Below are positions 45,208 through 46,506 of a stretch of 64,000 nt of DNA, piece by piece. The first letter of the stretch is position 1. Each line of letters starts with the position of its first letter. The notes under the pieces are model-generated. The model worked only from the letters and a program-made list of their open reading frames with translations. It made no database searches and had not been told where the DNA came from. Made by a program: the position numbers and the translations under genes. The stretch is from contig NZ_CP015102.1 of assembly GCF_002214485.1 (NCBI RefSeq), positions 682,001 to 746,000 of the forward strand. The letters are read 5' to 3'. Origin of the DNA: Thermococcus pacificus. GTDB lineage: Archaea > Methanobacteriota_B > Thermococci > Thermococcales > Thermococcaceae.

Positions 45208-45502
45208 GGTTTCCCCTGCTTTGTTTTTGAGGCGCGTGCTTTCTTTTTAAATTCGCTGAGAATGATAATCGCCATTATGATAACCGCGGTTATTATCTCG
45301 TTGGCTTTTCTGTTTGGGTTCCTCTTCAAGAGCTGCCTTCGCGCTCGAAATAATAAAGCGGGGCGAGTTTGGAAAGGGCGAGGAGATAAAGAAGCTCTGA
45401 GGATATTTGGGCCCTTAATGGTCTTCTCAAACTTTTGTCTGTTATTAACGTTCCTGAGGAAAGCCCCATCAACTCGCACCCCGGCAAGTTAGTCCTTTCT
45501 AA

Positions 45503-45526
45503 GAAACTTTGCTTGCGCAAAGTTTC
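45503..45526. repeat. Hairpin repeat, GAAACTTTGC family, copy 1
   Basis: GAAACTTTGC-TTGC-GCAAAGTTTC, a perfect 10-bp stem with a 4-nt loop. Flanked by ATCAAAC on the right. Confidence 0.85.
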
Positions 45527-45645
45527 ATCAAACAATTCGTCCTCAAACAAGGTGGGGGTTACAACATCGGGTTTTCTTTCCAATGCCCCCGATCTAACGA
45601 AGAACGCGCATAATAAGGGTATCTTGTGAGGGTTTCCTACTCTTT

Positions 45646-45667
45646 GACGCCCTTCGGGCGTCTTTTT
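45646..45667 (+). terminator. Hairpin with T-run, GACGCCC family, copy 1
   Basis: GACGCCC-TTC-GGGCGTC followed at once by TTTTT, a shape like an intrinsic terminator. The upstream transcript it would end is not evident. Confidence 0.45.
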
Positions 45668-45814
45668 GAAGCGAACCCATTCAAAAGGATTCCTTGGAGA
45701 TGTTCTCACTCAAAAACTGAATCTCGAGGGTAAACCCTTGTTAAAATTGGCTTAGGGGAAGCACTATTATTACTTTCCGCCAGCGCTTGCTTTGCAAGGG
45801 CTGATTGGGGGTGT

Positions 45815-45853
45815 GGGGGCGTTAGCCCCCCAGCAACCTTTGCTTGCGCAAAG
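45815..45853. repeat. Two adjacent hairpins (GGGGGC stem; CTTTGC stem)
   Basis: GGGGGC-GTTA-GCCCCC at 45815-45830, then CTTTGC-TTGC-GCAAAG at 45838-45853. The second is a shortened version of the GAAACTTTGC hairpin with the same TTGC loop, and is followed by AAGCTTGACCAAA-type sequence. Confidence 0.8.
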
Positions 45854-46082
45854 CTTGACCAAATGGCTCTGACTCGACTTAATCGCCTTGAAGTAGCTCG
45901 TACGTGTTTCGTTATGTGAGGGACTTTTAGTGGCTTTCTTGGGCAGAGTAGCCGATGTCTGTTGGGTTTATCTCCTTCGCGCCCTTCGGGCGCTATTAAA
46001 AGTAAACCCCTCTTAGAGAAAACCTGCTTAAGAGGAAAACCTTCAGAATTACGGCACCTGAAAAGCACGTACAAACTTTGAT

Positions 46083-46128
46083 GAAACTTTGCGCAGGCAA
46101 AGTTTCTTTCCGTGGGGCGAAGCCCCAC
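46083..46128. repeat. Hairpin repeat, GAAACTTTGC family, copy 2, and a GTGGGGC hairpin
   Basis: GAAACTTTGC-GCAG-GCAAAGTTTC at 46083-46106: same stem as at 45503 with a different loop, so the stem, not the loop, is kept. GTGGGGC-GAA-GCCCCAC follows at 46112-46128. Confidence 0.85.
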
Positions 46129-46152
46129 TTTGGGGGTTTGAGAGTACAGAGC

Positions 46153-46169
46153 AAGCTTTAGGAAAGCTT
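46153..46169. repeat. AAGCTTT hairpin
   Basis: AAGCTTT-AGG-AAAGCTT, followed by GACCAAA, repeating the word next to the hairpin at 45838-45853. Confidence 0.75.
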
Positions 46170-46277
46170 GACCAAAAGTTTGTAGCTCTCGTTCTGAGAG
46201 TTAGTCTGAGCTAGTGATCCAGCTAATGAGGCTTTTTCTATAAAAGCAAGTCACTAAGAGTGAGTTCACTTTAAATC

Positions 46278-46294
46278 GACGCCCGAAGGGCGTC
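46278..46294. repeat. GACGCCC family hairpin, copy 2
   Basis: GACGCCC-GAA-GGGCGTC; same stem as at 45646-45662 but with the loop complement (GAA for TTC), so it is the same element in opposite orientation. A GCGCCC-TTC-GGGCGC relative lies at 45979-45993. Confidence 0.8.
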
Positions 46295-46415
46295 AGTGAG
46301 CAGGAACTCCTAATAATACCTGCCCGTTGAGTTGAATTCCGTTTTTGGAATGGGCGTTTGGGGAGGGATCACACTCTTAGCTCCGGAAGTTCAGTGATGA
46401 GCTACCAACCTTGAT

Positions 46416-46439
46416 CAAACTTCACGAAGGTGAAGTTTG
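46416..46439. repeat. CAAACTTCAC hairpin
   Basis: CAAACTTCAC-GAAG-GTGAAGTTTG, a perfect 10-bp stem with the same size and loop length as the GAAACTTTGC hairpins but a different stem, preceded by CTTGAT. Confidence 0.8.
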
Positions 46440-46490
46440 CTTTGCAAAAAAATTGTACACCTCTCAAACCAAAAAAGGGTGGAAAGGTTC

Positions 46491-46506
46491 GAAAGCCTTT
46501 TAAATA
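46491..46506 (+). promoter_or_regulatory. Promoter of the ribosomal protein superoperon
   Basis: GAAAGCC (BRE-like) then TTTTAAATA at 46498-46506, a very good Thermococcus promoter. Transcription would start near 46527, leaving a leader of about 36 nt before the SPOUT gene. Confidence 0.7.

Follow-up and report, generated by a model that had tools for sequence, protein, structure and literature searches.

Several described systems resemble the locus considered here. MITEs, such as ERIC, Correia/NEMIS, RUP and RPE as well as those of Sulfolobus, are by definition short (<200 bp) and non-coding; they form dispersed imperfect palindromes that carry inverted repeats at their termini, lie mostly between genes, sometimes within them, and are richer in A+T than the genome (PMC2229807). 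The BOX repeats of Streptococcus pneumoniae are modular, clustered stem-loops whose module types are joined in varied order (PMC3049150), and they are reported to create target duplications. REP/BIME-RAYT systems and IS200/IS605 are marked by terminal or near-terminal hairpins, the REP/BIME repeats being single hairpins in head/tail pairs. In the Thermococcales, pTN3 and TKV4 are directed to tRNA genes by SSV-type tyrosine recombinases, share a stretch of tRNA with the attachment site and carry an integrase. The enzyme Int-pTN3 also recombines non-att sites, and in T. nautili two tRNA-Gly genes have been described as the partners of a spontaneous inversion that took place in a segment of 176 bp, which shows one corrected base; the study also remarks on "strictly conserved sequences immediately following" (PMC5495485).

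The window analysed here is a stretch of 64,000 nucleotides (G000:C1:682001-746000) of the T. pacificus genome, which comprises 1,785,673 bases in one contig. Within it lies a hairpin-rich island. Pfam identifies its neighbour on one side as an RNA-ligase gene (PF09414/PF18330) and that on the other as the methyltransferase gene (PF02598) with which the ribosomal superoperon begins. A sequence-only reading had described this island as an array of short perfect hairpins with shared stems, and the hairpins are confirmed at the positions given. Shuffling shows them to be in excess: between positions 45208 and 46517, perfect stems of >=5 bp that close a 3-4-nt loop number 17, against 3.5 +/- 1.9 in dinucleotide shuffles (300 for each count), together with seven stems of >=7 bp (0.29 shuffled) and four of >=8 bp (0.08 shuffled), and this 1.3-kb island holds 7 of the 19 stems of >=7 bp in the entire 64 kb. 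The stem GAAACTTTGC/GCAAAGTTTC is indeed shared by the hairpins at 45503 and 46083, with a trimmed form (CTTTGC/GCAAAG) at 45838; likewise, GACGCCC/GGGCGTC recurs at 45646 (loop TTC) and 46278 (loop GAA), with a GCGCCC/GGGCGC relative at 45979, while CAAACTTCAC/GTGAAGTTTG lies at 46416 and further hairpins are found at 45815, 46112 and 46152. The words that had been seen to recur beside these stems, ATCAAA/ACCAAA and TTTGAT/TTGGT, prove to be inverted repeats immediately inside the terminal hairpins. The open frames of the island, which had been suspected of being spurious, match no Pfam family, and an Rfam search of the window returned no match. The GC content of the island is about 0.45-0.50, against 0.52-0.60 in its surroundings.

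The island is made up of three tandem copies of one 240-300-bp quasi-palindromic, non-coding repeat (Table 1); the single hairpins noticed earlier are genuine, but the true unit is a palindrome that contains three of them. Comparison of the islands of T. pacificus and its relatives shows a unit that is bounded by a terminal hairpin on either side and centred on a third hairpin, with one arm of an inverted repeat between the centre and each end. Terminal hairpin A (CAAACTTTGC/GAAACTTTGC/CAAACTTCGC/CAAGCTTTT and variants, with a loop of 3-4 nt) is followed by the terminal inverted repeat ATCAAAG or ACCAAA, which is accompanied by a variable paired word (GTAGCTC, GTGATTC or GCATGTC). About 110 nt then lie on each side of the central hairpin B, itself often flanked by GGGTTTA..TAAACCC, and the complementary repeat followed by hairpin A' closes the unit; many units fold as a rod with B at the tip and one hairpin at each foot. 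Other termini are type E, CAGCCCTTTGC-N3-GCAAAGCGCTGGCGGAAA, which closes unit 1, and type F, CGAAAGAC-AAGGGGGC-TCC-GCCCCCTT-ATCTCTCTGTACTCTC. Full units fall into size classes of 296-304 and 266-271 bp in G063 (taken to be T. nautili 30-1) and of 236-242 and 299-301 bp in G010, and 235 bp of unit 2 are 82% identical to the tRNA-Arg island of T. pacificus. A second small palindromic module (CGTTGGAGC..GCTCCAACG, ACGGGAC..GTCCCGT) is nested in an arm of terminal hairpin A at L010 2127-2200, L009 3600-3660 and in L101.

Table 1. Repeat units, linkers and acceptor sites (window coordinates unless a genome is named).
Feature	Position	Strand	Remark
Unit 1: hairpins A, B, E	45503..45804		E type known from tRNA 3' flanks and from empty and occupied superoperon sites
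Unit 1 terminal hairpin A, GAAACTTTGC-TTGC-GCAAAGTTTC, then ATCAAA	45503..45526	+	R1 match G000:727503-727546, E 1.8e-9
Unit 1 central hairpin B, GACGCCC-TTC-GGGCGTC	45646..45662		stem scan
Unit 1 terminal hairpin E, CCGCCAGCGCTTGC-TTT-GCAAGGGCTGA	45777..45804	-	sequence
Linker hairpin GGGGGC-GTTA-GCCCCC	45805..45833		recurs between units of other islands
Unit 2 (273 bp): terminal hairpin, ACCAAA .. B (45979-45993) .. TTTGAT, A'	45834..46106		
Unit 2 terminal hairpin A', GAAACTTTGC-GCAG-GCAAAGTTTC	46083..46106	-	best R1 match of the genome, E 1.1e-11
Linker: hairpin GTGGGGC-GAA-GCCCCAC and TTTGGGGGTTTGAGAGTACAGAG	46107..46151		recurs between units
Unit 3 (288 bp): hairpin CAAGCTTT-AGG-AAAGCTTG, ACCAAAAGTTTGTAGCTC .. 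B (46278-46294) .. GAGCTACCAACCTTGAT, A'	46152..46439		
Unit 3 terminal hairpin A', CAAACTTCAC-GAAG-GTGAAGTTTG	46416..46439	-	stops one base before the superoperon-upstream motif
Acceptor side, not element: TTTGCAAAAAAATTG .. CGAAAGCCTTTTAAATA (superoperon promoter region)	46441..46506	+	conserved
Methyltransferase-gene insertion	G063 1934849-1935119		L116, L131, L140-L142

The distribution was followed with R1, a covariance model of the A end, at a cut-off of E<=1e-3 and with mirror matches set aside. T. pacificus holds 46 independent ends, grouped in islands, and 77 of the 115 genomes of the class match R1; the abundance of copies in this genome and across the Thermococcaceae excludes a region with neither copies nor conservation, and the proposal of a dispersed, MITE-like hairpin family is borne out. 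In the home genus, 58 of the 61 genomes carry ends, with copy numbers from 2 to 54, and no R1 ends were detected in G003, G018 and G075. Among the other genera, ends are present in all three genomes of g8 (probably Palaeococcus), in 7 of the 13 genomes of g10, in at least 7 of g11 and in one of g12, while R1 detected none in the nine genomes of g9 (probably Pyrococcus). Outside the Thermococcaceae, the search of the 115 genomes gave a single marginal match and nothing convincing, and the element appears confined to this family. The genome G010, with 50 ends, is presumably that of T. kodakarensis KOD1, and G064 is taken by us to be T. onnurineus NA1. A viral origin was rejected, as no viral contig matched a specific hairpin pattern.

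The ends are concentrated behind genes for stable RNAs, a link that is seen only beyond the window. In T. pacificus, the distance to one of the 44 tRNA genes is at most 1.5 kb for 34 of the 46 ends (2.6 expected nearby), and all but one of these 34 are on the tRNA 3' side; 11 are adjacent (<=20 nt from the end of the tRNA model), where 1000 rotations of the genome never gave more than one adjacency, and by eye the adjacent ends begin 2-9 nt past the CCA. TRNA-adjacent ends number 15 in G001, 7 in G061 and 4 in G047, which belongs to another genus, with 3'-side splits of 35:0, 36:6 and 5:1, respectively. Six more T. pacificus ends belong to islands that lie behind two tRNA genes with introns, tRNA-Trp at 252 kb and tRNA-Met at 1665 kb, both of which are missed by the RF00005 search; the tRNA-Trp intron carries an sR3-like C/D RNA (L012 1968-2107, L126 2087-2226). 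Similarly, element ends start 0-4 nt behind two other stable RNAs: the C/D RNA sR36 is met directly by an E end in three genomes and in a fourth by an F end, and Pab160, an H/ACA RNA, is met by an A end; in other genomes the E-type end abuts tRNA CCA ends, sR36 and the superoperon motif. A promoter-side case is provided by rpl37ae (T. pacificus 1083.9 kb, L059; gene named by eye from the peptide). Many tRNA genes of T. pacificus have no element; where a copy does lie at a tRNA, it may be tolerated, or it may serve as a boundary for transcription at the 3' end. Rfam searches of the islands returned only tRNA, sR36, Pab160 and HgcC, all of them outside the units save for one sub-threshold HgcC match (L012 2603-2718, 37 of 50 bits) that overlaps a unit; the Thermococcales HgcC RNA may be related to, or inserted in, such islands.

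At the superoperon, ends of types A, E and F all halt 0-1 nt before the motif TTTGCAAAAA, the end position of unit 3 is shared with other Thermococcus, and the motif is kept without the element at nine sites (L074, L076, L080, L083-L086, L088, L089). A stretch of about 55 nt (window 46441-46497) that separates the element from the TATA box of the superoperon is conserved across the Thermococcales even where the element is missing. Its minus strand has a T-run, and it could represent a regulatory element or mark where a short divergent transcript ends.

Comparison of loci shows, furthermore, that copies move. For instance, 327 nt are identical, in inverted orientation, at 127.6 kb (tRNA-Val island) and 807.4 kb of T. 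pacificus, and the superoperon island of G011 is 95% identical over 388 nt to a second island of that genome, the one at the Val/Arg tRNAs; at the superoperon of its relatives G001 and G013, different units are found between shared flanks. Filled and empty sites can be compared directly in a SAM-methyltransferase gene, in which exactly 63 bp (21 codons) separate two flanks in 20 genomes. In G061, G063, G015 and G071 these 63 bp are replaced by a 268-271-bp unit, and in G091 a unit begins at the identical left base with only 29 bp lost, so that 21 or about 10 codons are gone just before the VGCG motif; no target-site duplication is seen between filled and empty sites. On the flank tree, which is built from about 700 columns of this one locus, the five carriers are not a single clade (p-AU 8e-4 when the long-branched G015 is left out, 1.6e-54 when it is included). 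Because the lost 63 bp cannot restore themselves, the pattern requires several insertions (about four on the flank tree) unless the filled allele was passed on in short tracts; in principle, horizontal transfer of such tracts among the carriers, and not independent insertion, could have spread the interrupted allele. New copies evidently appear over evolutionary time, and one protein gene received them at an identical base in several lineages; the units are discrete, with precise termini (A, E or F), fixed acceptor bases and loss of target. Repeated insertion at a single base, with no transposase recognised, points to a novel enzyme.

The copies within one genome share tracts through ectopic copying. 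Their interiors are often only 65-75% alike and the terminal hairpins remain paired, a state unlike that of a recently spreading MITE, which suggests selection or repair acting on the structure; the pairing may be conserved through selection, hairpin-templated repair or a requirement of movement. Between the close relatives L055 and L056, a clean loss of about 92 bp starts at a hairpin tip. In T. nautili, tRNA-Gly(TCC) and tRNA-Gly(CCC) share 86 + 1 + 89 = 176 nt (L155 578-790, L160 76-290), composed of the tRNA 3' half and the element up to near hairpin B, that is, half an element. The published inversion segment of this species appears to be partly this element, the genes having been matched by length and description, and the element in the crossover segment would therefore lengthen the homology used by recombination. 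Thermococcales chromosomes invert often, with breakpoints at tRNA genes, and close relatives are therefore unalignable.

From these observations, the repeat is probably a non-autonomous, non-coding, hairpin-ended and MITE-like element whose targeted insertion is performed by a trans-acting enzyme. A cutting or recombining enzyme would recognise the folded hairpin ends and deliver a copy to acceptor sites, one junction being set by the cut and the other by repair; the copies would later be homogenised by ectopic recombination, with breaks tending to fall at hairpins. The low-specificity tyrosine recombinase of the genus, Int-pTN3, is proposed as a candidate mover only. The Y1 transposase domain PF01797 is absent from T. 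pacificus and from 10 of 11 other genomes, including some with about 50 copies, so membership in the RAYT-linked REP/BIME group was rejected and the suggestion of a REP family in the strict sense is not supported. Reverse transcriptase (RVT_1, PF00078) was found in none of the 12 genomes, so retro-mobility, an idea prompted by the combination of a fixed with a variable junction, was rejected; as movers in the present genomes, Y1 transposase and reverse transcriptase are excluded or unlikely. No autonomous relative was noticed among the islands retrieved.

Spread without any dedicated enzyme was weighed against this proposal. The repeats could be passive, carried by the cell's break repair, by template switching at hairpins and by low-specificity recombination between tRNA loci, and several features of the copies speak for such a process. 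Of 96 ectopic identity tracts, some of which are plain tRNA paralogy, 33 end within 6 nt of a hairpin where 23% would be expected, an excess that could be partly a product of fast-changing loops; one island shared by the sister species G001 and G011 (about 96% identity) shows several hairpin-tip changes that replace both arms or invert the loop (TTGC/GCAA). The 176 nt shared by the T. nautili tRNA-Gly loci, half of them element, match the reported inversion crossover in length (PMC5495485). However, passive spread leaves unexplained how the same base of a protein gene was reached in separate lineages without visible homology, and how three different end types come to reach the superoperon motif at one base, and we regard it as unlikely, although worth keeping in view. 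Chance is a weaker explanation by far: decaying intergenic DNA with fortuitous inverted repeats would suit a gene-free region that is A+T-richer than its surroundings, but it is ruled out by the shuffle controls and by copies across genome and family, and its probability is practically negligible.

A selected structure that does not move, such as an RNA 3' end or terminator, an insulator, or a DNA structure of chromatin (TrmBL2 or SMC stalling), would account for the position at the 3' ends of stable-RNA genes and beside r-protein promoters, and for terminal hairpins that stay paired despite changes in both arms, for example at the orthologous superoperon site. The units are also more stable than shuffled sequences, with z values of -4.7 for unit 1 (computed on 45503-45855), -3.8 for unit 2 (MFE -89.8) and -6.3 for unit 3 (MFE -104.8). 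Nevertheless, the structure is missing from 3 of 61 genus genomes and from all nine of g9, varies from 2 to 54 copies, is absent behind many T. pacificus tRNA genes and interrupts a protein gene. The pairing count (96% paired cells, 40 two-sided changes) was not used as proof of an RNA, since the sequences had been picked for pairing and the copies convert each other. Downstream of tRNAs, both strands fold equally well (19 of 34, mean -2.3 kcal), and the undescribed structured RNA proposed earlier is at most a possibility; with no strand bias, no Rfam match to the units apart from the HgcC overlap in L012, and absence from whole species, an RNA function, while conceivable, is without positive support. 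A Box C reading of TTTGATGAAAC was discarded, as the variable base lies in the hairpin. Archaeal terminators require no hairpin, and a scan for ordinary terminators gave 1 site against 2.5 expected, which eliminated them. A fixed functional structure is judged quite improbable. Of the two ideas in the sequence-only reading, the MITE-like one is the better, and the unit, its placement and its movement are new information. Since genetic models (G010) carry the element, direct tests can be made of how it inserts, how it affects tRNA expression and what part it plays in inversions.

Compared with the known systems, the MITE-like element resembles MITEs in being non-coding, dispersed and short (no Pfam family, 46 ends), mostly intergenic and A+T-rich, although its units of 236-304 bp exceed the <200 bp of the definition (PMC2229807); its terminal inverted repeats, ATCAAAG/CTTTGAT or ACCAAA/TTTGGT, pair into a long rod. 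In contrast to MITEs, its terminal hairpins stand outside the inverted repeats, its ends lie at the 3' ends of RNA genes, acceptor bases recur, no parent transposon was found, and the filled methyltransferase sites lack 63 or 29 bp instead of showing a duplication; target duplication having been sought and found absent, the element is named MITE-like and not a MITE proper. With BOX it shares modularity, stem-loops, clustering and varied module order, but no sequence relation is known, and the three-hairpin unit and the placement at tRNA and sRNA 3' ends are not BOX features. From REP/BIME and IS200/IS605, which it resembles in its hairpin ends, it is separated by the Y1 domain missing in 11 of 12 genomes, and from REP/BIME also by units that are whole palindromes with inverted ends. 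It has tRNA targets and the host genus in common with pTN3 and TKV4, but it duplicates no tRNA and encodes nothing. In a limited search, no description of this family was found in the searchable literature. It is possible, and put forward here only tentatively, that these repeats represent a new class of mobile DNA in archaea: site-selective, transposase-less, hairpin-ended palindromes that an enzyme inserts at the exact 3' ends of small RNAs and at a few fixed bases, deleting the target where other systems duplicate it, and that also shape inversions at tRNA loci.
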